A stretch of 39,865 nucleotides of DNA, from the NCBI GenBank assembly GCA_029781095.1, contig JAKOXM010000789.1, positions 1 to 39,865 of the forward strand, written 5' to 3'. Of the stretch, positions 1,641-37,438 are shown piece after piece. Under the pieces are notes generated by a model that worked only from the letters and a program-made list of their open reading frames with translations, did not search any database and had not been told where the DNA came from. The DNA is from Bacteroidota bacterium. Lineage in GTDB: Bacteria; Bacteroidota; Bacteroidia; Chitinophagales; Saprospiraceae. Position 1 is the stretch's first letter; each line of letters begins with the position of its first letter. A program made the translations under genes and the position numbers.

Positions 1641-3065
1641 TTAAGTTGTTTGTTCATGCAAAGCGACAGTGCCCTCAACGGACTGATCGCTGTTTTCCTT
1701 GTGTCGGTTACATACTTTTGACAAAACCGCTTCCAGTACGGGCAGGGTGTTGTTCAACTGTTTTGTTTTGATGAGAAAATTCCAGACAGCTTCAAATTTT
1801 TTCCAGCCTCCGGCATAAGCCCAGTGTTTAAACATGTGTTTCGGCGCTTCGTGTTGCAAACCCGCCTTGAAAATGTTCGACCAGCTGTAAAAGTCCCTGT
1901 ACGCCCGGTCATAACCTCGTTTCAGTTCATCTGCCGACAGATTGCGCGTCTCATAAACTACATGGCGGGTGTCGTAGAGATCCCAGTTGCGCGTTTTGAT
2001 CCGCCCTTGCCGTTCCATATCGGCATACAACCGGGTGCCGGGGTATGGCGTCAGAATATGAAAAGTTGCGGTCGTAATGCCGTTCGCAACTGCCCAGTCC
2101 ACCGTCGTTTTAAAAACGTCCGGATGATCATCGTCGAGGCCGAAGACAAAACTGCCGTTGATCATAACGCCCAGGTTATCAAGTCGTTGAATGGCTTTTT
2201 GATAATCTTTTCCAAGATTCTGTTTTTTATTGCTGCTTCGCAAATTCTCTTCGCTGAGGGTTTCGAAGCCGACAAAAAGGCTGCGCAGTCCCGCTTCCGC
2301 CGCTTTTTCGATCAGGTTTCCGCGCAATATGGCGTCTACGGTAGAAGCCCCCTGAAACACCCGGTTCATGCCCCGCATTCCCTCAAACAAGGCTGCGGCA
2401 AATTTGGCATTGCCAAGGAGGTGATCGTCGAGAAAGTACAGATGCCGGCCAGGCAAACGCTCTATTTCGGCCAGGGCATCGTCCACGAGCTGGGTATAAA
2501 AGGATTTTCCGCCCTGAAAAAAGGCATCCTTGTAACAAAAATCGCAGTGGTGCGGGCAACCCCGCGACACGACGATTGAGTTCGGAACAAGGTATAAACG
2601 CCTGTTAATCAAATCTCTCCGCACTTTTGGCATGCCCGCAAGCGAGCGTTCGAATGAAACGTAGACCTCCTTTGCCTTTTTCGACCGGAAATCGTCGAGG
2701 AACTTCGGGAAGGTGTCCTCGCCGGGTCCGATAAAAATCGCATCCGCGTGGGGTTTGGCTTCTTCCGGCAATGAAGTGACGTGCAGGCCGCCCAGGCAGA
2801 CAAATATCCCTCGTTTTCGATAGGAATCGGCGATCCGGTAGGCGCGGTACGCATTGGTGATATATACCTGAATCACCACCAGATCGGGCCGGTCGTCCAG
2901 CCGGAGTTCTTCCACGTGTTCGTCCTGAATCCAGGCCTCATCGTCGACTTGCAAATACCCGGCCAGTGTGGCCAGCCCCAGTGGCGGGAAGAGCGAATAT
3001 TTTATCGGACGCCAATAGGGACCCCTGGCCTCCGTCAGCGCCGGAAGAATGAATTTGACACGCAT
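1641..3065 (-). CDS. B12-binding-domain radical SAM protein
   Basis: This 474-residue protein combines an N-terminal cobalamin-binding-like domain (PPLGLATLAGYL near residue 27; a Rossmann-like section to about 125) with a radical SAM core. The iron-sulfur cluster motif CxxxCxxC is Cys170, Cys174 and Cys177 within SRGCPHHCDFCY. The SAM-binding region FLDDHLLGN and the later PYPGTRLY segment are also present. Members methylate or rearrange unactivated carbons in lipids and natural products; the substrate here cannot be assigned. The C-terminal 80 or so residues match the tail seen in BchE/Hpn-like relatives. It lies 52 bp after the winged-helix regulator gene and overlaps or abuts the DUF1361 gene, suggesting an operon. 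Confidence 0.9.
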   Translation of the reverse strand: MRVKFILPALTEARGPYWRPIKYSLFPPLGLATLAGYLQVDDEAWIQDEHVEELRLDDRPDLVVIQVYITNAYRAYRIADSYRKRGIFVCLGGLHVTSLPEEAKPHADAIFIGPGEDTFPKFLDDFRSKKAKEVYVSFERSLAGMPKVRRDLINRRLYLVPNSIVVSRGCPHHCDFCYKDAFFQGGKSFYTQLVDDALAEIERLPGRHLYFLDDHLLGNAKFAAALFEGMRGMNRVFQGASTVDAILRGNLIEKAAEAGLRSLFVGFETLSEENLRSSNKKQNLGKDYQKAIQRLDNLGVMINGSFVFGLDDDHPDVFKTTVDWAVANGITTATFHILTPYPGTRLYADMERQGRIKTRNWDLYDTRHVVYETRNLSADELKRGYDRAYRDFYSWSNIFKAGLQHEAPKHMFKHWAYAGGWKKFEAVWNFLIKTKQLNNTLPVLEAVLSKVCNRHKENSDQSVEGTVALHEQTT

Positions 3066-4225: not shown

Positions 4226-4692
4226 GATAAGCGGAGCGTTTGTTCAGTGTGGTTGTCATGCAGGCTGGAATCCGGCGGCGAAAAGGGATATATAATTATG
4301 CCGGCCCAGACGCCAAGCCAATATGGTAAAATAAAGGTCAATATGTTCCTGCGCCATATATCCCCTTCAAACAGAAAATAGAAAGGAAGTACGGTTAAAA
4401 TGGTCGAAACGATCAGGATCAGAATTTTTCCTGCCCATATCTGCAATTCCGTAAGACTGACAAGGGCAACCAAAACCCACAACAGGAAAAAACTCGGAAC
4501 CGACAGGAGAACGCCGATGACAAGCGAGAGAAAAAAGATTCCCCAAAACGAAGTTAAATCATTCCAAAAAGCATCAAATCCGTTCAGTTTATACCTTGTC
4601 CATAAAAAATCAAGGCTTATCACCGCTGGCCCGCCGATCGCTGCGGTGAGCCACACTTTCAGTGCATAGTCCCTGGATAGAGAAAAATTCAT
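4222..4692 (-). CDS. Hypothetical four-span membrane protein
   Basis: This 156-residue protein is mostly hydrophobic, with about four membrane spans and a polar C-terminal tail (PPDSSLHDNHTEQ). A longer frame extends to 4809 but would run through the promoter and overlap the divergent rlmB start. The ATG at 4690-4692 lies just downstream of a good Bacteroidota promoter, so it is preferred. Its stop overlaps the start of the next membrane protein gene, and the two are probably produced together. No family was recognised. Confidence 0.7.
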   Translation of the reverse strand: MNFSLSRDYALKVWLTAAIGGPAVISLDFLWTRYKLNGFDAFWNDLTSFWGIFFLSLVIGVLLSVPSFFLLWVLVALVSLTELQIWAGKILILIVSTILTVLPFYFLFEGDIWRRNILTFILPYWLGVWAGIIIYPFSPPDSSLHDNHTEQTLRLS

Positions 4693-4715
4693 TTCTATAA
4701 AAGTACTTTGAGACG

Positions 4716-4746
4716 CAAAGTTACTTTTAAGTTTCAAATCTCCAAA
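4716..4746 (-). promoter_or_regulatory. Bacteroidota-type promoter for the leftward membrane-protein group
   Basis: On the minus strand TTTG (4743-4746) is followed by a 19-bp spacer and TAACTTTG (4716-4723), a perfect match to TTTG-N19-TAnnTTTG. Transcription would start near 4710, about 18 bp before the ATG at 4692. It could drive genes from 4692 down to 899. Confidence 0.7.
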
Positions 4747-4760
4747 CCGCCGGGAAAAAT

Positions 4761-4768
4761 TAATTTTG
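4761..4768 (+). promoter_or_regulatory. -7 box of the rlmB promoter
   Basis: TAATTTTG matches TAnnTTTG and lies 39 bp before the preferred rlmB start at 4808. No good -33 element was seen. The box sits inside the longer rlmB frame that begins at 4766, which argues against that longer start. Confidence 0.5.
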
Positions 4769-4807
4769 CGCTGTGACGCTGACCTCCGGTCGGCGAATCC
4801 CTCATAC

Positions 4808-5548
4808 ATGACAGATTCAAACCTTATTTACGGTCACCATCCGGTTACGGAGGCCATTCGCGCGGGCAAAGCGGTGGAAAAAGTGTATTTCCAGCAAGGC
4901 GTTCGCGGCGACCTCGAAAAAGAAGTGCGCCACCTGACGAAGGAATACGGCATTCCCTTACAGGTAGTGCCCCGCGAAAAACTCAATAAAATGACCAAAG
5001 GAGCGCACCAGGGCGTAGTGGCATACCTCGCCCTGGTGGAATTTCTGTCGCTGGAAGACGTACTGCCTTTTATATTTGAACAGGGCGAAACGCCTTTGCT
5101 TGTTATGCTCGACGGCATTACAGACGTACGCAACTTCGGCGCCATTTGCCGTTCCGCGGAATGCGCGGGTGCGCATGCGGTTATAATTGGACAATCCGGC
5201 TCGGCTCCTGCCAACGAAGAAGCCATGAAAGCCTCCGCAGGCGCCCTTGCGCGGGTGCGCATCTGCCGGGTGCGCAGCCTGTTCAGTACCGTGGAATTGT
5301 TGCAGGAATCAGGCGTCCAGGTGGTTGCCACAGCCTTAAGCGACCGTTCCAGGCCGGTTTTTCAAGCGGATTTTACCCTGCCCACAGCCATTTTGATGGG
5401 ATCGGAAGGGGAAGGCGTCCATACCAAACTCCTGAAAATGGCCGACGAGGTCGTCAAAATTCCCCAGGCAACCGATTTCGACTCTTTCAACGTCAGTGTG
5501 GCGACCGGGATCGTGTTGTATGAAGCGATGCGCCAGCGCCTGGTGTGA
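4808..5548 (+). CDS. rlmB: 23S rRNA (guanosine-2'-O)-methyltransferase RlmB
   Basis: This 246-residue TrmH-family SPOUT methyltransferase is of the RlmB type, which methylates the ribose of G2251 in 23S rRNA using S-adenosylmethionine. An N-terminal substrate-binding domain (YGHHPVTEAIRAG near residue 7) precedes the SPOUT domain. The three SPOUT motifs are visible: LDGITDVRNFGAICRSAE, ILMGSEGEGV and IPQATDFDSFNVSVATGI, the last forming the knotted SAM site. The longer frame from 4766 adds 14 residues (MRCDADLRSANPSY) that do not look like the family and would overlap the promoter, so the ATG at 4808 was chosen. It is transcribed divergently from the small membrane proteins. Confidence 0.93.
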   Translation: MTDSNLIYGHHPVTEAIRAGKAVEKVYFQQGVRGDLEKEVRHLTKEYGIPLQVVPREKLNKMTKGAHQGVVAYLALVEFLSLEDVLPFIFEQGETPLLVMLDGITDVRNFGAICRSAECAGAHAVIIGQSGSAPANEEAMKASAGALARVRICRVRSLFSTVELLQESGVQVVATALSDRSRPVFQADFTLPTAILMGSEGEGVHTKLLKMADEVVKIPQATDFDSFNVSVATGIVLYEAMRQRLV

Positions 5549-11557: not shown

Positions 11558-13021
11558 TCAGCCGGCGAGCCGTTCCCTTCGCTTTTGCCAAAAATAAACC
11601 GGGATGCCGAGCAGCACGATAAATACACCTGACCACGTATTTTGCGGCTTGGTGACCAGCAAAATGACGCATATGGCTCCTGCGATCAATATATACAACG
11701 CAGGTAAAAAAGGATAGCCGACTACCCGGTAAGGGCGTTCGGCATCGGGTTCCTTGCGACGCAGAACAAAAACACCCATAATGGTAACGATGTAAAACAT
11801 CAGCGAGGCAAACGTGGCGTAGTCAAGCAAATCGCCGTAGGTGCCGGAAAGGCAGAGAACACTCGCCCAGACAGCCTGCGTCAGCAAGGCGAAACCGGGC
11901 ACCCCGCTTTTATTCAGTGTGGCGGCTTTTTTGAAAAACAGTCCTTCCTGAGCCATGGCGTAATACACCCTTGCTCCGGCAAGGATTAGTCCGTTGTTGC
12001 AACCAAAAGTAGATACCATGATGAGTCCGGCCATGAGGGCCGCCGCGACACTGCCGAAAATCATGGACGCCGCCGCCGTTCCGACCCGATCGGTGCCGCC
12101 GCCCGCAAACTGTATTCCCTGTCCCAGCACATCCGTCGCATGCGGGTCTCCCTTGACAGGCAGCAAGGAGAGGTATGCTACATTCGCCAGTATATACAGC
12201 GCGGTCACGATACAGGTGCCGAACAGCAAACTGAGCGGTATATCGCGCCGCGGATTTTTCATCTCTCCGGCGATAAAAGTTACGTTATTCCAGGCGTCGC
12301 TCGAAAACAAAGGCCCTATAATGGCGGTACCGAAGGCCATCAAAAGCGCAAATCCGGTGATGGACGTCGTGATCCAGGCCCCGTCTACAAGGGAAGTTTG
12401 ACTTGCCTGCCAGGCATTTTCCCAGTTTTGGGCAAACACGTCGCCTTTCAGACCGACGGCCAGGCCGACCACAACGAGTGCGAGAAGTGCCAGCAATTTG
12501 GCGGAGGTAAACACCAGCTGGATAATCTTGCCATTTTGTATTCCCCGGCTGTTGACTATCGTCAGCAAAACGATCATGGCAATGGCAAAAATCTGGCTGG
12601 CGGCAATTTTGAATTTCCCAGCGGTCAGCAGCACATTATCCGGGCTCAGCATTGGAAAAAAATAACCGGTAAATTTTGCAAATGCCACCGCTACTGCGGC
12701 TATCGTGCCGGTCTGAATAACCGTAAATACCGTCCAGCCGTATAAAAATGCCGGCAGTTGCCCGTATGCCCGTTCGATATAAACAAACTGGCCGCCCGCT
12801 TTCGGCATCATGCCTGCCAGTTCGCCGTAACTCAGCGCTGCAGTGATGGTGATCGCTCCGGCGACGAGCCAAAGCAACAGCATCCATCCGGATGACCCCA
12901 CCACACGGGAGCAATCGGCGCTAACGATAAAAATACCCGAACCGATCATGCCGCCTGCCACAAGCATGGTGCCGTCGAGCAAACTGAGTGACCGGTGAAA
13001 TTGAGCCTTTGTGTTTTCCAT
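11558..13021 (-). CDS. APC-superfamily amino-acid permease (LAT-like)
   Basis: This 487-residue protein with about 12 membrane spans belongs to the APC superfamily of amino-acid transporters and resembles the LAT/YkbA-like branch. The substrate-binding signature GGMIGSGIFIV lies in the first span near residue 22-32, and SYGELAGMMPKAGGQFVYIERAYG follows. It should import or exchange amino acids across the inner membrane; the specificity is unknown. The longer frame to 13057 adds 12 residues and would overlap the intergenic hairpin, so the ATG at 13021 is preferred. It follows a second APC permease gene in the same direction. Confidence 0.9.
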   Translation of the reverse strand: MENTKAQFHRSLSLLDGTMLVAGGMIGSGIFIVSADCSRVVGSSGWMLLLWLVAGAITITAALSYGELAGMMPKAGGQFVYIERAYGQLPAFLYGWTVFTVIQTGTIAAVAVAFAKFTGYFFPMLSPDNVLLTAGKFKIAASQIFAIAMIVLLTIVNSRGIQNGKIIQLVFTSAKLLALLALVVVGLAVGLKGDVFAQNWENAWQASQTSLVDGAWITTSITGFALLMAFGTAIIGPLFSSDAWNNVTFIAGEMKNPRRDIPLSLLFGTCIVTALYILANVAYLSLLPVKGDPHATDVLGQGIQFAGGGTDRVGTAAASMIFGSVAAALMAGLIMVSTFGCNNGLILAGARVYYAMAQEGLFFKKAATLNKSGVPGFALLTQAVWASVLCLSGTYGDLLDYATFASLMFYIVTIMGVFVLRRKEPDAERPYRVVGYPFLPALYILIAGAICVILLVTKPQNTWSGVFIVLLGIPVYFWQKRRERLAG

Positions 13022-21912: not shown

Positions 21913-23463
21913 ATGCGGCGTCTGATCATCGGAAAGCGGACAATCGGTCATTTTTTGACGGGAGCGGCGCTCTGCGCACTGTCGGCCGCATTGCGCTATA
22001 ATTCCCTGGCACAAACTCCCTTTGCCAACGGCTGGGACGGGTATTTTTACCTGGTACAATTGAAGTCATGGGTGGAAACCGGCCGAATGCACAGCCCGGA
22101 GGCGTCGCTTATATATCCGTATTTGCGCGCATTTTACTGGCTTACAGGCGATTATGTAACAGCACTTAAACTGGGAGCCTCCATACTGGCCGGTTTGTTT
22201 ACCTGGACGATATATGCCCTGGCTGCTGGCAGCGATGAAAAGGAGCAATCCCTGTTCCCGGCCGTACTCCTTGCCTCCTTTTCCGTTTTTTCACCGCAGC
22301 TCACGTATTTCGCAGCGCAGTTTCCCAAGAATCTGTTGGGTGTAATACTCTTCACGGCATTTGCCGGAAGTCTGTCGCGCCTTCGTGATTCCGGGGAACC
22401 TCGCCCGGGCAAAACCTGGATATTGCCGGCCATACTATTGATTATCAATTATTTCGGGCACCGAATGACCTTCGTCCTTGCCGTGATGTTTCTGGCATTC
22501 AGACTGCTATTCGTGCTGTGGAGAAATTGGCGCCAATTGTATGGAGGTCCTTTGCGGGTTTTTGTGTGGCTGACATTGGCAGGTTCGGCGGCATTTGTGG
22601 TCGCAGGGCAATTTTTCCCCCGTTTATTTCATATATCGGATTTCGGCAGGTTAGACGGGGTATTTTCTCCCGTACCGAAATTTGCGCCATGGGCATTTGC
22701 AGGCCTGTTTGGCAGGGAGCGGCTTTCCGGCTGGTGGGTGGCGGAAATCGCTTTTGCAACGGCCTGCTGGGTGCTGACCGCGGCCCGGTTGCTCGTCCGA
22801 AAGCCGCGATTTTCGACGCCCGGCTTCCATCTGCCATTGTGGTGTCTTTGCACGCTGATGATCTTTCCGTTTCTGGAATGGTCGCTGACAGGCATTGCCT
22901 ATCGCCTGTTTCTGGTATTCGTATTGATTACACCACTTTTGGTAATTGATCTTACATTTGTCAAAAACAGGCGAACCGGCGTGATTTTTGCTGCATTTTT
23001 GCTCATCAGTTCATTCTTTTCCCGGAAAAGTTACCAACCGCGATGGCACGATCCTGATTACGGGATGTTTTCCCGAACCACCGCAAATGCCCGGCAATAT
23101 CTTTCGGACAAATCGCCTGAATTGATAATTGCACAAAACGGGCTTGCCGAATTTTTTACCTTCACCACCGGTACCGACGCAATGCCATGGCTGCCGGAAT
23201 ACGCCATCGATTCTTCGCGACTATGGCGCATCGCTGCGGAAATATCACCGCAGACCGTACGTTATTACGCCGGCACAGCGTATGAAAATGAGATCAAACC
23301 AATCGGCTACCGGTATGTTCTTCTGCCGGAATACGTTTGGCAGGTGGCGCTGAATCGGGCCAGACAGGAAAAAGATGAGGGATTTTTGGCCGATGCAGGC
23401 AATTGGCGCAATCCTTCCCGAATCCGGCCGGTTTGGTTACTGCACAGAAATAGAAAGTATTAA
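21913..23463 (+). CDS. GT-C-like polytopic membrane protein
   Basis: This 516-residue protein has about eleven membrane spans up to residue 370 and a soluble C-terminal domain of about 130 residues. The first extracytoplasmic loop contains FANGWDGYFYLVQLKSW. The WD pair and surrounding aromatic residues resemble the catalytic loop of GT-C glycosyltransferases such as oligosaccharyltransferase and dolichyl-phosphate-dependent enzymes. No exact family could be named. It overlaps the lipoprotein operon with a 3-bp gap, suggesting a shared role in envelope glycan assembly or modification. Confidence is high for membrane topology and moderate for the GT-C assignment. Confidence 0.65.
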   Translation: MRRLIIGKRTIGHFLTGAALCALSAALRYNSLAQTPFANGWDGYFYLVQLKSWVETGRMHSPEASLIYPYLRAFYWLTGDYVTALKLGASILAGLFTWTIYALAAGSDEKEQSLFPAVLLASFSVFSPQLTYFAAQFPKNLLGVILFTAFAGSLSRLRDSGEPRPGKTWILPAILLIINYFGHRMTFVLAVMFLAFRLLFVLWRNWRQLYGGPLRVFVWLTLAGSAAFVVAGQFFPRLFHISDFGRLDGVFSPVPKFAPWAFAGLFGRERLSGWWVAEIAFATACWVLTAARLLVRKPRFSTPGFHLPLWCLCTLMIFPFLEWSLTGIAYRLFLVFVLITPLLVIDLTFVKNRRTGVIFAAFLLISSFFSRKSYQPRWHDPDYGMFSRTTANARQYLSDKSPELIIAQNGLAEFFTFTTGTDAMPWLPEYAIDSSRLWRIAAEISPQTVRYYAGTAYENEIKPIGYRYVLLPEYVWQVALNRARQEKDEGFLADAGNWRNPSRIRPVWLLHRNRKY

Positions 23464-23517
23464 CCATAACAAAACTCGCTTATTCGACCGTTTTCTCTAA
23501 AAATCAGGCCGTTTCCT

Positions 23518-23546
23518 TGTCGGTTCTGAAATTTCTTGTACCTTTG
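23518..23546 (+). promoter_or_regulatory. Promoter of the double-glycine peptide gene
   Basis: TTG (23518-23520), an 18-bp spacer and TACCTTTG (23539-23546) form a near-consensus Bacteroidota promoter. The predicted start near 23552 leaves a leader of about 33 nt before the ATG at 23586, and it shows that the open frame beginning at 23517 is not the true start. Confidence 0.65.
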
Positions 23547-23585: not shown

Positions 23586-23792
23586 ATGATTTTTCCTTTT
23601 GGCAAAAAAAGAGACATTCACGCCGACGACGAGCAAGACAACAAAAAAAGCAAGCTCGACGAAATTGAGGCTGATCTCACCGTTCTGGATAAGGACGAGA
23701 TGAACAAAGTGGAAGGCGGCAAGACGAGTTCCAACTCGTTTGGCAGCCTGAGCGACCTCCGCGACAGCCTCGGCGGCACCATTCCTTTATAA
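23586..23792 (+). CDS. Small double-glycine leader peptide, possible RiPP precursor
   Basis: This 68-residue peptide has a highly charged, acidic leader and the motif VLDKDEMNKVEGG (residues 33-45). That fits the double-glycine leader (Lxx.E[ML]xxIxGG) of Bacteroidota natural-product precursors of the TIGR04149 type. Cleavage after Gly45 would release a 23-residue core beginning KTSSNSFGSL. The core has seven Ser/Thr and no Cys, so it is not a lanthipeptide of the usual kind. The gene has its own promoter and a strong terminator. No modification enzyme, C39 peptidase or dedicated exporter is encoded in the window. It could be an orphan precursor matured by machinery elsewhere, or a small unmodified secreted peptide. 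Confidence 0.7.
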   Translation: MIFPFGKKRDIHADDEQDNKKSKLDEIEADLTVLDKDEMNKVEGGKTSSNSFGSLSDLRDSLGGTIPL

Positions 23793-23815
23793 TCAATTAC
23801 CGCCCCATACTTCGG

Positions 23816-23850
23816 AAGCCTTCTGTCGCTACGGGCAACAGAAGGCTTTT
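23816..23850 (+). terminator. Rho-independent terminator of the peptide gene
   Basis: AAGCCTTCTGT (23816-23826) pairs perfectly with ACAGAAGGCTT (23838-23848) around an 11-nt loop, and further T residues follow. It isolates the peptide gene from pnuC, whose start is 12 bp beyond. Confidence 0.85.
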
Positions 23851-32435: not shown

Positions 32436-34019
32436 TCAATGCGCCTCTTCCATAGCCGCTACTGCCGCAGCGTCCGGTTTTTGCGGTTTTCTAACTTTGA
32501 TAAAGAATACCAGCGGGAACACGACGATGAAAAAAACAGCGATGAGGCGGAAGGTATCGAGGTATGTCAGCAAATACGCCTGCCTTTCCACCATATAATT
32601 CAACTGCTTGTAGGCCATTTCCGTAGCGTCGGAAAGCGTTGCGCCGGTGCGGCTGATCATTCCCTGTACCATCGTATTCAGCCTTTCATCGAAGGCGGGA
32701 TTGCCCGGGACGGTATTGGCGACGAGATCGCTTTTATGCTGTGCGAAGCGATGGGCCATGTAATTGTTGGAAACCGCAATCCCGAAAGCGCCGCCGATTT
32801 GCCTGATCATGTTGTTCAGTGCAATGCCGGAGGGATAATCTTTGGGCTGCAACCCGGCCACTGCCTGGTTGATCAGCGGCAACTGCACCATGGTGATCCC
32901 GATCGCCCGCAAGGCCAGCGGAAAGAAAAAATCCCATTTGCCGGCCTGGGCGTTCACCCCGGCACTCGTCCATCCAAAAACGATAAAGAGGATAAATCCT
33001 GTGATGACAAAAGGCACCGGTGACACGCCTGAGGCCATTCGCTTGCCGATAATAGGCATCATAACGACCCCTATTGCCGTGGCGGGCAGCAGTGAAAGCC
33101 CCGTTTCAAGGGGCGTCATGCCCAGCACCCGCTGCGCAAGAATGGGGTATATATAGACCGAAGTGAACAGCCCGAGACCAACAACAAATGTGAATACGGT
33201 TGTCAGTGCCAGCGTGCGGTTGCCCATGACTTTCAGGTTGACGGCCGGGTGCGGCGTAGTCAGTTCGCGCCAGATAAAACCCACGACGCCGACTGTCGCC
33301 GCCACCGCGAGGATGCGTATATTTTCGCTGGCAAACCAGTCTTCGGTTTCCCCCCGTTCCAGTACGTACTGCATCGAGCCGATGCCGACGGCAAGCAGCG
33401 CGATACCGGGGTAATCGATGACAAACCCTTCTTTTTTCTTGCCTTCTCCTTCCTTCCGGTCTATGAAAACAATGGACAAAACGGTTGCGATGATCCCGAT
33501 CGGGATATTGACCGTAAAAATCAACGGCCATTCCGCATTATCCAGAATATAACCGCCTACCGTAGGTCCGAGTGTAGGGCCGAGGATGATGCCCATGCCA
33601 AACAAACCACTGGCAATCGGCCGGTCTTTCGGTTCGAAAGCATCGAACAGGATCGCCTGGGAGGTGGAAAGCAGCGCTCCGCCGCCGATGCCCTGCACAA
33701 AACGCCAGAATACCAGTTCGCCAAGCCCCGTCGATGTACCGCACAACCAGGAGGCCACGGTGAAAAGGATCATGGAAAAGACGTAGTAATTCTTGCGCCC
33801 GAAATACTCGCCCAGAAAACCGGTCATGGGTATAATGATCACGTTTGCAATGGCATACGACGTGATAACCCAAGAAATGTCTTCAATAGTGACACCCAGG
33901 CTCCCTGCCATTTGCGACAAGGCCACGTTGACGATGGAGGTATCCACCAATTCCATGACCGCCGCGGAAACGGTGGTGATGACTATAATAGCCTGGGCAA
34001 AACCCTTTAGTGCCGCCAT
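32436..34019 (-). CDS. DHA2-family drug efflux MFS transporter (EmrB-like)
   Basis: This 527-residue transporter has 14 predicted spans and the DHA2 motifs: span 1 AVMELVDTSIVNVALSQMAG, motif A FLGEYFGRKNYY, motif C GIILGPTLGPTVGGYILD and a late NNMIRQIGGAFGIAVSN. It should pump drugs or bile-salt-like compounds out, driven by protons. It is the last gene of a tetR-tolC-emrA-emrB-like operon and would form a tripartite pump with the HlyD-type and TolC-type proteins encoded upstream. Confidence 0.94.
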   Translation of the reverse strand: MAALKGFAQAIIVITTVSAAVMELVDTSIVNVALSQMAGSLGVTIEDISWVITSYAIANVIIIPMTGFLGEYFGRKNYYVFSMILFTVASWLCGTSTGLGELVFWRFVQGIGGGALLSTSQAILFDAFEPKDRPIASGLFGMGIILGPTLGPTVGGYILDNAEWPLIFTVNIPIGIIATVLSIVFIDRKEGEGKKKEGFVIDYPGIALLAVGIGSMQYVLERGETEDWFASENIRILAVAATVGVVGFIWRELTTPHPAVNLKVMGNRTLALTTVFTFVVGLGLFTSVYIYPILAQRVLGMTPLETGLSLLPATAIGVVMMPIIGKRMASGVSPVPFVITGFILFIVFGWTSAGVNAQAGKWDFFFPLALRAIGITMVQLPLINQAVAGLQPKDYPSGIALNNMIRQIGGAFGIAVSNNYMAHRFAQHKSDLVANTVPGNPAFDERLNTMVQGMISRTGATLSDATEMAYKQLNYMVERQAYLLTYLDTFRLIAVFFIVVFPLVFFIKVRKPQKPDAAAVAAMEEAH

Positions 34020-34053
34020 GAACTGTCTTTTTAAGAATTGCTGGTTGATTTTA

Positions 34054-35208
34054 TCACTTCGTCGGCACGATCACTTCTACGCTCATGCCCGCACGAAGGG
34101 GCATTTCCGGGTCGGGAGTATCCGTGAGTACCACCCGTACCGGAATACGCTGCACGACCTTTACAAAATTGCCGCTGGCATTGTCGGGCGGCAAAAGGCT
34201 GAACTTGGCTCCTGTTGCAGGGGAGATGCTTTCGATCTTGCCGTTGAAGATTTTGCCTCCGTAGGCATCCACTTTCACCTGTACCGGTTGACCGGGGCGC
34301 ATTTTACCCACCTGTGTTTCTTTGAAATTGGCCGTTATCCAAAGGTTTTTGTCGCTGACGATGCTGCACAGGGGACTGCCGATATTGGCGAGTTGGCCAA
34401 GCTGGCCGTTTTTCTTCGCTACAAAACCACTTACCGGCGCCGTGATGACCGTATATGACAGGTTCAGCCGTGCATTTTCGAGATCGAGCCGGCGTTGTTC
34501 TGCCTGCGTCCGCGCGATCGCCACATTTTTTCCGGCGGCAGCAGCCTGGGTTTGATAGGCCGCTTTTTGGCTCGCGCCGGCATTCGATTGGCGTCGCGAG
34601 ACTTCTACCTGGCGTCGTGCGGTTTCCAGCTGACTCTGGGCGGCCAGGAGACCGGCTTGCGCGCTTTCCATGTTCGCTTTGGCAGCATCATATTGTTGCT
34701 GCGTGACAGCGCGCTGCGGCAGTAATGCAGCATAGCGATTAAAGTCCTGCTTTGACTGCCAGGCGCGTGACTGGGCGGCGTCAACATTCGCCTGTGCCGT
34801 TTCCACGGAGCTGACAGCCGTTTCCACGCCCGCAGCAGAGGTTTGAAAATTCGCTTCTGCCGTACCTACGTTGGCGCCGGCGGACGTTGCGTTCGCAGCG
34901 ACATAACCGACATTGGCTTCGGCGTTTTGCAGCGCCGCCTCCGATTGCAACACGCGAAGTTTAAAATCGCGGTTATCGAGTATAAAAAGCGTATCGCCGG
35001 CCTTGACGTATTGATTCTCCTGCACCAGCACCTTGTCAATATACCCCTGCACTTTAGGCGATACAGACACGATATCTGCTTCGAGGTAAGAGTTTTCGGT
35101 GTCTTCGTGCGTCATCAGGTAGCGGATTTTGGTAAAACCAAAAATACCGCCTACAAGCAACACACCGCCGAGGATAAATGGGAGGGCCCTGTTTTTTTTC
35201 TTTTCCAT
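34054..35208 (-). CDS. HlyD-family membrane fusion protein (EmrA-like)
   Basis: This 384-residue protein has a single N-terminal span (residues about 9-27), a biotinyl-lipoyl-like domain (SVSPKVQGYIDKVLVQENQY, then AGDTLFILDNRDF) and a long helical hairpin at about 80-235 rich in Ala and Gln. A second lipoyl half and a beta-barrel domain follow (VITAPVSGFVAKKNGQLG onwards). It bridges the EmrB-like pump and the TolC-type channel. The open frame extends to 35367, but the 53 extra residues come from repetitive GATGAATGATGAG DNA, so the ATG at 35208 is preferred. Confidence 0.93.
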   Translation of the reverse strand: MEKKKNRALPFILGGVLLVGGIFGFTKIRYLMTHEDTENSYLEADIVSVSPKVQGYIDKVLVQENQYVKAGDTLFILDNRDFKLRVLQSEAALQNAEANVGYVAANATSAGANVGTAEANFQTSAAGVETAVSSVETAQANVDAAQSRAWQSKQDFNRYAALLPQRAVTQQQYDAAKANMESAQAGLLAAQSQLETARRQVEVSRRQSNAGASQKAAYQTQAAAAGKNVAIARTQAEQRRLDLENARLNLSYTVITAPVSGFVAKKNGQLGQLANIGSPLCSIVSDKNLWITANFKETQVGKMRPGQPVQVKVDAYGGKIFNGKIESISPATGAKFSLLPPDNASGNFVKVVQRIPVRVVLTDTPDPEMPLRAGMSVEVIVPTK

Positions 35209-35253
35209 GATTTGATAAACAATGAGGGTATTTGAAATGAACCGAGGAAGTTG

Positions 35254-35297
35254 GGAGTGATGAGTGATGAATGATGAGCGATGAATGATGAGTATTA
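35254..35297. repeat. GATGAATGATGAG microrepeat
   Basis: Tandem GATGA/GAATGAT words lie upstream of the HlyD-type gene, between it and the tolC-type gene. They resemble the ACTCATCACT words at 3541-3571. Confidence 0.5.
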
Positions 35298-35407
35298 ATT
35301 GATAATCAACACTTTGAAAAATACGCATTACCTGATAATAACGACTGCCGTATTTTGAATGCGACACGAAATGACGTTAATGACAACAACCCATCCATTC
35401 ATTGCCT

Positions 35408-36727
35408 TTACAATCTCGCCGCGCTTCTGAGCAATTTCAGATAAGCCAGGCGGGCGTCGGCTTTTGCAGAAACCCGGCTGATTTGCGCCTGCAACAGCAG
35501 CGCGTCGGCATCCAGCAGATCGGTTACGGAAGCAATTTGCTGTTCAAAGCGAAGTTTTGTAATATGCTGGTTTTCAAGCGCTTGCCGGACCGATTTTTCA
35601 GATAGCGCGATCTTCTGGGTAGCCGTCTGCCAGGCGTAATAATTGGATGCGATTTCCGAGCGGGCGGCGTCCGAAATCTGATCGCGAAAGGAAGCCGCCT
35701 GCACGAGATTCAGTTTTGCCTCCTGTACGGTGTACTTCGACGTAAGCAGATTACTGATATTCCATGATACGGAAATGCCTGCATCCCAGGTAGTTATAAG
35801 CCTGTCCTCCAGCGGAAACTGGCGCTGGTTGGGATTATTTGAATAGAGGTTGGCGCCAACGGTCACAAGGGGGAAATAGGCGCCTTTCCCGATCGACACC
35901 TGTTTTTCGGAAGCGAAGACGCGCTGGGTAGCCGCTTTCACATCGGCGCGTTGAAGGTTGCCGTTCATAAAAACATCCAGGGCTTCAGGGGCAACAGGCG
36001 CCACGATGGATGCCGAATCGATTTGCAGAACCGTTTCAACCGGGAGTCCAAGCAGAAGGTTCAGGGTGTATTGCCCGGCCGCAGCGGCATTTTCGGTCTC
36101 GATCCGGGCCGTTTCGATCTGGGTAACAGCCAGATCGGCTTTCAGGACGTCGTTGTCGAGTGCAAGTCCCTGCGCCTGAAGATTCCTGGTATCGGTCAGC
36201 CTGTTATTTGCCGTGGCCAGGTTGGAGTCGAACACTTTCAGCGCTTCCTGTAATTTGTACAGGTTAATGGCCGCGCCGAGCAGGTTCAACTGCACTTCCT
36301 TTTTGTCCCTTTCCAGGTCGAACCGGGCGGCGTTTTCCAGAAACTCCGTGGCGCGAATGGTGTTGAGCGCGCGCAGGCCCGTAAAAACCGGTTCGGAAAT
36401 GGAAATGCGGCTGAGGGTCTGGTTGAGCAGCACCGGAATAGTAAAAGCGGGCGTTTCGAAAGGGGTGATATTGTCGCTCAGGCGGTAATACGAACCGGTG
36501 TAATTCAGACTTGGAATGGTGGTGGCACGGGTCTGACGCGTCCGCGCATGGGCGGCCTCCGCCCGGGCAGTCGATACCTGCAACTGCTTGCTGTTTGCCA
36601 TGCCGAGGCTGATTACCTCGTCGAGTGTGAGCGTCCGGGCCGGCGACTGCCCGTAGCCCGCAGAAATCGGCATCCAAAAAAGCGCTGCGACAATAATTGT
36701 TTTTGAGAATGGGTTTGCCATGTTCAT
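35408..36727 (-). CDS. TolC-family outer membrane channel protein
   Basis: This 439-residue protein has a signal peptide (residues 1-27, ending near SAGYGQ) and the TolC fold: two similar halves of long helices and strands, each starting with a LTLDEVISLGMANSKQLQV-like segment. It forms the outer-membrane exit duct of the efflux pump. The start at 36727 (MNMANPF) follows an operator; the second Met at 36721 is an alternative. It is the second gene of the operon, after tetR. Confidence 0.92.
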   Translation of the reverse strand: MNMANPFSKTIIVAALFWMPISAGYGQSPARTLTLDEVISLGMANSKQLQVSTARAEAAHARTRQTRATTIPSLNYTGSYYRLSDNITPFETPAFTIPVLLNQTLSRISISEPVFTGLRALNTIRATEFLENAARFDLERDKKEVQLNLLGAAINLYKLQEALKVFDSNLATANNRLTDTRNLQAQGLALDNDVLKADLAVTQIETARIETENAAAAGQYTLNLLLGLPVETVLQIDSASIVAPVAPEALDVFMNGNLQRADVKAATQRVFASEKQVSIGKGAYFPLVTVGANLYSNNPNQRQFPLEDRLITTWDAGISVSWNISNLLTSKYTVQEAKLNLVQAASFRDQISDAARSEIASNYYAWQTATQKIALSEKSVRQALENQHITKLRFEQQIASVTDLLDADALLLQAQISRVSAKADARLAYLKLLRSAARL

Positions 36728-36736
36728 TCAGTGTTG

Positions 36737-36756
36737 AATCAAACGTTTGTTTAAAA
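36737..36756. promoter_or_regulatory. Probable TetR operator upstream of tolC
   Basis: AATCAAACGTTTGTTTAAAA contains the perfect decamer palindrome CAAACGTTTG and is identical to the site at 37488-37507. It sits 10 bp before the tolC-like start. A near -7 box, TATATTTC, lies just upstream on the minus strand (36762-36769). Confidence 0.75.
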
Positions 36757-36799
36757 ATCGGGAAATATAACACCCTCCTGCTGCGATGCCGGGCGCGGG

Positions 36800-37438
36800 T
36801 CAGGTCTTGCCGGCGATCATCAGATGCGCCTGCACCAATGCCTTGAGATGGTTTTTGAAGCGATTCTTGAACTGTTCATTATATATGTTGTCGTCGGATT
36901 CCTTCATCACGGCACACATCAACGGGCGATTGTTGATGACCGTGGAAAGCGAACCGAATATGGTGGCGATGGTAAGTTCGATATCCACATAACGGAACAT
37001 GCCCTTTTCCTGTCCTTCCACAATAAAACTGCGAATAAATTCCATATTGCCGGCCATATAACCGGTGATGAGTTTGACGTGTTCCGGGCGTTGTTGCAGC
37101 GACATTTCACGCATAACTACGCGGTGGAAGGCTCTTCCGGTAAAAAATTTGTCTGCGTACAGGTCTATTACCTGCGACAGTTTTTCCCAGGGGTTGAGGT
37201 TTGAAGCGGCCAGGTCCTGCAGGCGTTCGCGGGTTTTCGGTATTTTGCTTTCAATAAGCGCTTCGAACAATTTGTCCTTGGATCCGAAATAATAACCCAC
37301 CATCGCCACGTTGACGCCCGCCTCGGAAGCCAGCTTTCGAATGGATACTGCCTCGTACCCTTCCTCGGCAAAGAGACGCTCCGCTACATCGAGAAGTTGC
37401 TGGCGACGGTCAATTTTTTCAGAAAATGTATCCGACAT
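36800..37438 (-). CDS. TetR/AcrR-family repressor of the efflux operon
   Basis: This 212-residue protein has a TetR helix-turn-helix at residues 13-60 (RLFAEEGYEAVSIRKLASEA, then GVNVAMVGYYFGSKDKLFEAL) and an all-helical ligand-binding C-terminal domain. It is the first gene of the efflux operon. Two identical palindromic sites, one overlapping its own promoter and one before tolC, make it likely that it represses both and is released by a pump substrate. Confidence 0.93.
   Translation of the reverse strand: MSDTFSEKIDRRQQLLDVAERLFAEEGYEAVSIRKLASEAGVNVAMVGYYFGSKDKLFEALIESKIPKTRERLQDLAASNLNPWEKLSQVIDLYADKFFTGRAFHRVVMREMSLQQRPEHVKLITGYMAGNMEFIRSFIVEGQEKGMFRYVDIELTIATIFGSLSTVINNRPLMCAVMKESDDNIYNEQFKNRFKNHLKALVQAHLMIAGKT

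Follow-up and report, generated by a model that had tools for sequence, protein, structure and literature searches.

A double-glycine peptide of Saprospiraceae is probably a component of a signalling system with genes that have become separated in its genus

A 68-residue double-glycine peptide, encoded in a 39,865-nucleotide stretch of Bacteroidota DNA that we call the window, probably belongs to an undescribed bacterial signalling system, the genes of which have become separated from one another in the window's genus. From comparison of sequences, we consider it fairly likely that the peptide is the precursor of a signal that is read by a soluble TPR histidine kinase and relayed to a LytTR response regulator. 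We give about an even chance to the more specific proposal that, in this Gram-negative family, the kinase itself acts as the receptor for a C39-exported peptide whose C-terminus is nearly invariant, and that the system works though scattered in one genus. The peptide gene and its flanks comprise:

23487..23516, plus strand: conserved upstream element with two direct repeats, ACCGTTTTC and GCCGTTTCC; from the genus alignment, LytTR-like by spacing and core
23517..23546, plus strand: Bacteroidota-type promoter, TTG-N19-TACCTTTG; from the consensus match and genus conservation
23586..23792, plus strand: double-glycine peptide gene, 68 residues plus stop; from the ORF, homologues and dN/dS
23586..23720, plus strand: leader, residues 1-45, ending in VEGG, with L-15, L-12, M-7 and V-4; the matching positions are hydrophobic in homologues
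23721..23789, plus strand: predicted core, residues 46-68, KTSSNSFGSLSDLRDSLGGTIPL; placed by the GG site and alignments
23772..23789, plus strand: C-terminal motif GGTIPL, counterpart of (C)GGI(V/L)PQ; Pro is second from the end in all distinct tails
23814..23850, plus strand: intrinsic terminator stem-loop; from folding

On the sequence evidence, ORF 23586-23792 is a real gene and not a chance reading frame, because it is encoded in 37 of the 42 genus genomes, the window's own included (33-90% identity in the others), and has a dN/dS of 0.06-0.13 against its four closest relatives (dN 0.05-0.10, dS 0.69-1.17). Its translation agrees with the original prediction, made from the DNA letters alone, of a 68-residue product whose leader ends in DEMNKVEGG and whose core is Ser-rich and free of Cys: KTSSNSFGSLSDLRDSLGGTIPL has 23 residues, 6 of them Ser. 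We rejected a lanthipeptide identity, as the core contains no Cys.

The gene also appears to be transcribed independently, as had been proposed, with its own promoter and terminator. The near-consensus promoter predicted at 23518-23546 is found as TTG-N19-TACCTTTG at 23517-23546, and the terminator predicted at 23816-23850 as a stem-loop at 23814-23850 (-22 kcal/mol, z -3.8). The promoter pattern occurs three times in the window against 0.33 expected. PMC6414381 gives TAnnTTTG as the promoter consensus of Bacteroidota, and TTG-N19-TAnnTTTG lies upstream of the peptide in 33 of 37 genus loci despite their differing neighbours. Judged by eye, genomes G134, G127, G113 and G114 have the same terminator stem and G133 and G121 a different one. 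We rejected an operon with pnuC or with the upstream gene, since the peptide has its own promoter and terminator and its neighbours differ across the genus; pnuC is near the peptide in 9 of 37 genus loci. Both flanking genes had been named in advance. The pnuC assignment holds (PF04973, E 1e-54), but the 516-residue ORF at 21913-23463, previously called GT-C-like, has no Pfam match. Elsewhere in the genus, a propeller-type histidine kinase is found near the peptide in 11 of 37 loci (L039, L040, L048, L049, L050, L052-L055, L063 and L065), with a YceI gene between them in most and a LytTR regulator within the sequenced stretch in 5; the Pfam domains of the L040 kinase are Reg_prop and Y_Y_Y.

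A profile built from 21 homologues (A1) was searched in 248 genomes of the window's family, Saprospiraceae. It matches 89 of them, from 49 of 112 genera, a count that includes one match with internal stops (G155); 86 of the 89 genomes have a single match. A further profile, A3, matches 49 of 298 genomes of the order, every one in the family, and 1 of 295 genomes of the class, the window's own. Because of this distribution, the peptide family looks restricted to the window's family at this search sensitivity.

Peptides from outside the genus are in most cases shorter, at about 48 residues, with the consensus MGKxxKKxLxDLKKDLKxLxKxDMxKIxGGK...WNxGCGGIxPQ. The homologues have in common a C39-type leader and a constant C-terminal end, frequently GCGGI(V/L)PQ, which in the window reads LGGTIPL. 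All 78 distinct tails collected by BLAST or profile have Pro as the penultimate residue (PQ in 57, PL in 17, PS in 4). With the first GG taken as the cleavage site, a hydrophobic residue is present at -15, -12, -7 and -4 in 77, 86, 78 and 82 of 91 homologues, respectively. Val-4, Leu-7 and Leu-12 of the leader contact the protease in the account of PMC6363468, and the homologues here display the C39/PCAT leader pattern, in which GG or GA precedes the cut and positions -4, -7 and -12 are hydrophobic. The core is 13-29 residues long, with a median net charge of +2 and Cys in 99 of 143 cores, in a set chosen partly by the C-terminal signature and with GG sites picked to favour the pattern. In the homologues the GG segment is retained and the core does not form part of a longer protein, the opposite of what the original prediction had named as arguing against a precursor peptide.

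The leader does not belong to the family to which it had been assigned. We rejected membership in TIGR04149 (curated cut-off 25 bits) because the window peptide has no match to the model at E<=1; the best TIGR04149 match of its genome lies elsewhere. The nearest leader models, both weak, are Bacteriocin_IIc (PF10439, E 0.0065, below the cut-off) and TIGR01847 (E 0.06). Among the 40 homologues from A3, the best NCBIfam E-value is 2e-4 and 18 touch the TIGR04149 leader model weakly, in a search for which scores are available for one member only. No family cut-off was reached by any peptide whose scores were inspected. The radical SAM-modified RiPP precursors of TIGR04149 and the pinensin-type leaders are likewise double-glycine leaders of Bacteroidota; the window peptide differs from them in having no match at E<=1 and no maturase beside its gene. 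A separate orphan double-glycine peptide, which matches the pinensin leader model (NF038180, 47.9 bits, cut-off 24), is encoded at 9898-10161 of L074, on contig C829 of the same genome, where its neighbours are a 514-residue ORF and an ORF at 11898-12335 with LytTR similarity.

Listing the neighbours in relatives, a check that the original prediction had proposed, revealed that the peptide gene shares a conserved operon with genes for a LytTR response regulator and a TPR histidine kinase, which points to signalling. We compared one locus each from 62 of the 85 non-genus genomes with a profile match; the rest are mostly weaker matches. The regulator lies at most 0.7 kb upstream on the same strand in 56 of the 62, a kinase of about 640 residues at most 0.7 kb downstream on the same strand in 48, and both partners are present in 44. 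The kinase count is too low, as ORF calling missed the kinase beside the peptide in, for example, G001 and G239. The Pfam domains are Response_reg and LytTR for the regulator, and TPR_12, His_kinase and HATPase_c for the kinase.

Using the TPR part of the kinase as the query, we fetched 80 named loci, mostly from Saprospiraceae, Lewinella, Phaeodactylibacter and Flavilitoribacter. A kinase ORF is present in 78, a double-glycine peptide with the C-terminal signature lies upstream in 61, and the complete trio of regulator, peptide and kinase occurs in 53. The cultured strains Flavilitoribacter nigricans DSM 23189 (L243), Lewinella cohaerens DSM 23179 (L272) and Phaeodactylibacter luteus KCTC 42180 (L289) carry the operon. 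As a control, the same peptide rule was applied to the 71 of these 80 loci with a called kinase and at least 1.7 kb of upstream sequence; a peptide was identified upstream at 56 of the 71 loci, never on the reverse strand (0 of 71) and never downstream (0 of 57). At L284 (positions 4269-4412 and 4655-4813), and also at L211, two tandem double-glycine peptides stand between the LytTR regulator and the TPR kinase; these are perhaps two pherotypes.

The presence of the peptide in a genome is associated with that of the kinase. In raw counts that ignore kinship, 86 of the 248 family genomes have both, 3 have the peptide only (G155, whose match contains stops, G168 and G210), 36 have the kinase only and 123 have neither (Fisher 3e-33). 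Of the 20 kinase-only genomes examined, 11 encode a double-glycine peptide that the profile had missed, one of them as a tandem pair; at the other 9 loci there is no peptide by the criteria used for flagging, and one of these has a looser candidate. A C39 peptidase is found in 87 of the 89 peptide genomes versus 67 of the 159 others, again as raw genome counts. By eye, no C39, exporter or immunity-like cluster is seen among the 12 most frequent neighbour clusters.

The window's own genome keeps one of each part on four contigs: the peptide on C118, the kinase on C436, the regulator on C293 and the C39 exporter on C573. The exporter, a C39-peptidase ABC transporter of the kind that the original prediction had proposed to look for elsewhere in the genome, lies beside an HlyD gene; it has 731 residues with C39, ABC_membrane and ABC_tran domains and is the sole C39-ABC exporter of this genome. 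The kinase (639 residues, E 1e-137) is also the only one of its kind, with the same Pfam domains as in relatives. The regulator, with Response_reg and LytTR domains, stands out at 52% identity, the next best being 35%, and has an SRP54-type ftsY-like gene on one side and a transglycosylase gene on the other.

Of the 42 genus genomes, 37 retain the TPR kinase, and the regulator is absent from all 30 genus kinase loci inspected (about 1.4 kb on each side). The presence of the peptide does not track that of the kinase within the genus: 33 genomes have both, 4 have only one of the two, 4 only the other, and 1 has neither. From this distribution, one of each part, unlinked, and an operon in relatives, the window gene appears to have become an orphan secondarily, its operon having broken up in the genus. 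In some distant genomes (G165, G238 and G051 among them) the kinase is present and not beside the peptide, so separation of the genes occurs beyond the window's genus as well.

The window itself had been described as having no maturation enzyme, C39 peptidase or exporter. A Pfam scan of 28 of the 30 ORFs of at least 150 residues detects no C39 peptidase, but the description is too strong for maturation enzymes and exporters. A B12-binding radical SAM protein is encoded at 1641-3065 on the minus strand, some 20 kb away from the peptide gene, and positions 32436-36727 hold an MFS-HlyD-OEP efflux cassette. By eye, no radical SAM gene stands out among the recurring neighbours of relatives, a minority of which were Pfam-scanned. 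With its TetR gene, the minus-strand region 32436-37438 (MFS, HlyD, outer-membrane efflux, TetR) is a cassette of the EmrAB-TolC type.

The kinase has no membrane segment: the highest 19-residue hydropathy is below 1.6 in 44 of 45 kinases, and the remaining one has its peak of 1.71 in the ATPase domain, at residue 543. An AlphaFold2 model of the TPR part, computed for the F. nigricans kinase with 41 relatives, has a pLDDT of 93 and 19 helices. The top 40 Foldseek matches of this model include RapI, Rap-CSF, RapF-peptide and phage Rap-pheromone entries, a likeness that is general to TPR superhelices (TM about 0.5), with designed TPRs and LGN complexes ranking first. Even-numbered helices are more conserved on average (0.63 vs 0.49), H16 being an exception, and we take them as the TPR A helices lining the groove. 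N78, N119, R152, D188, R231, W234 and N238 are invariant in 42 kinases, genus members included, and the invariant Asn, Arg, Asp and Trp are on or beside even-numbered helices. The modelled fold and its conservation are what a peptide-binding groove looks like, and we regard it as a candidate site. Co-divergence of the TPR part with the core, beyond that of kinase and regulator, is weak (partial r 0.18, p 0.012; 52 of 53 trios, one identical kinase having been dropped). It is stronger between regulator and core (0.28), so co-divergence does not single out the TPR domain.

Upstream of the promoter in the genus we observe two direct repeats resembling CC(G/T)TT(C/T)C, with a period of 21 bp in the window and 20 bp in most relatives. 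The repeats flank an A-tract, and the second abuts the -33 box. The element carries 26.7 bits over 30 positions (31 distinct genus sites), and none of 33 sites departs from AA at -18/-17 or C at -8. Loci left out of the repeat matrix also score (L067 27.2, L047 19.0), and the best unrelated site in 1.12 Mb of genus sequence, counted strand-wise, reaches 15.7; among the 31 genus peptide sites, one scores 15.1, below the unrelated site, and one lacks the repeat (-1.9). A search for a regulon in 800 kb of the 5.9-Mb genome of the relative G127 found the peptide promoter alone (31.8, next best 16.9). The repeat was not found before regulator, kinase or C39 genes among the genus sequences scanned, nor upstream of the distant peptides at 62 loci, where a search for TTG-N18-20-TAnnTTTG fits only 8. 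According to PMC6193735, the repeats used by LytTR regulators are separated by 11-13 bp and lie immediately upstream of -35, and for this reason the geometry in the window fits LytTR; the second repeat is nearer the -33 box than is usual for LytTR sites. By spacing and core, the genus element is a LytTR-like direct repeat and a putative regulator site.

Based on these observations, we propose the following sequence of events. The C39-ABC transporter would cut after VEGG and export the core, whose C-terminus (GGI(V/L)PQ or GGTIPL) would be the recognised end and would bind in the concave groove of the TPR superhelix. The core could bind once it has re-entered the cell, or else before it is exported; in the latter case the kinase would gauge the peptide backlog. 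The kinase would then alter the phosphorylation of the LytTR regulator, which may act at direct repeats, probably including those before the peptide gene, thereby providing feedback.

If the cytoplasmic TPR kinase sensed only the precursor before export, the system would measure export capacity or precursor level and not neighbours. This reading suits a kinase without a membrane segment by hydropathy, and a C39 peptidase that co-occurs with the peptide yet is absent, by eye, from the 12 most frequent neighbour clusters. We think it unlikely, as the C-terminus of the core is the most constant part, which is expected of a processed ligand; leader conservation does not separate a gauge from a secreted signal, because C39 recognition explains it. 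The peptide might instead be bacteriocin-like, with its production under the LytTR system and the kinase sensing something else. Its leader resembles class II bacteriocin leaders, although the PF10439 match is below the cut-off, and the positive median charge and the frequent Cys, from a partly signature-selected set, are in line with such a product. A single match in 86 of 89 genomes, a near-constant C-terminus, purifying selection and, by eye, the lack of an immunity-like or exporter cluster in the top 12 neighbours make this quite unlikely.

In the genus, the peptide could have been re-wired to the neighbouring propeller-type (Reg_prop, Y_Y_Y) histidine kinase and LytTR regulator, which stand near it at 11 and 5 of the 37 loci. 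The propeller kinase is absent at the other 26, the window's included, whereas 37 of 42 genus genomes retain the soluble TPR kinase, with its groove residues invariant where aligned; re-wiring is thus very unlikely. Finally, the original prediction saw in the gene an orphan natural-product precursor, of a new family matured in trans. The double-glycine precursor with its machinery elsewhere stands, but the family is not an orphan one, given the LytTR/TPR-kinase operon of the relatives, and none of our findings links the peptide to a modified product. A RiPP modified in trans would accord with the double-glycine leader, the weak contacts of 18 of 40 homologues with TIGR04149 (best E 2e-4) and the B12-binding radical SAM gene 20 kb away. 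Against it, the window peptide lacks a TIGR04149 match at E<=1, neighbours vary across the genus and the recurring partners of distant peptides are regulatory. We consider this explanation highly improbable.

A peptide signal read by the TPR kinase, the reading we prefer, would have several consequences. A row of double-glycine peptide, TPR kinase and LytTR regulator across Saprospiraceae would give Bacteroidota a means of communicating by peptides, and it offers a defined ligand of 13-29 residues, a candidate receptor and a promoter that are testable in cultured type strains. We found no description of the peptide family or operon in the open-access PMC literature. The text of PMC10352776 describes Bacteroidales RiPP clusters with TPR genes and one kinase/regulator pair.

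The proposed system can be compared with two known classes. RRNPP systems (Rap-Phr, Rgg-SHP, PlcR-PapR) are described from Gram-positive Firmicutes and their mobile elements, with a propeptide of 10-100 residues, an adjacent TPR receptor of 250-500 residues and secretion through Sec/PptAB as the criteria given (PMC10075063). The peptides described here are of similar size (45-71 residues with the chosen start codons, inside that range), lie beside a cytoplasmic TPR receptor in 48 of 62 distant loci, though unlinked in the window, and have a conserved C-terminal end; the TPR model also resembles Rap structures. Unlike an RRNPP receptor, the kinase is a LytS-type histidine kinase of about 640 residues with a LytTR partner, the leader is of the C39 double-glycine type and the host is a Gram-negative member of Bacteroidota.

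ComC/ComD/ComE and Blp/Sil-type systems combine a double-glycine pheromone, a histidine kinase, a LytTR regulator and a direct-repeat promoter, and their kinases are multi-pass membrane receptors. The double-glycine peptide, LytTR regulator and histidine kinase recur here, as the trio at 53 of 80 named loci, but the kinase carries a TPR sensor in place of membrane segments, and the exporter gene is unlinked. The proposed system would resemble RRNPP and ComCDE in its working, and we place it in neither, because the size of its receptor sets it apart from RRNPP and the missing membrane receptor from ComCDE. If our interpretation is correct, it would couple intracellular peptide sensing of the RRNPP style with a two-component relay.
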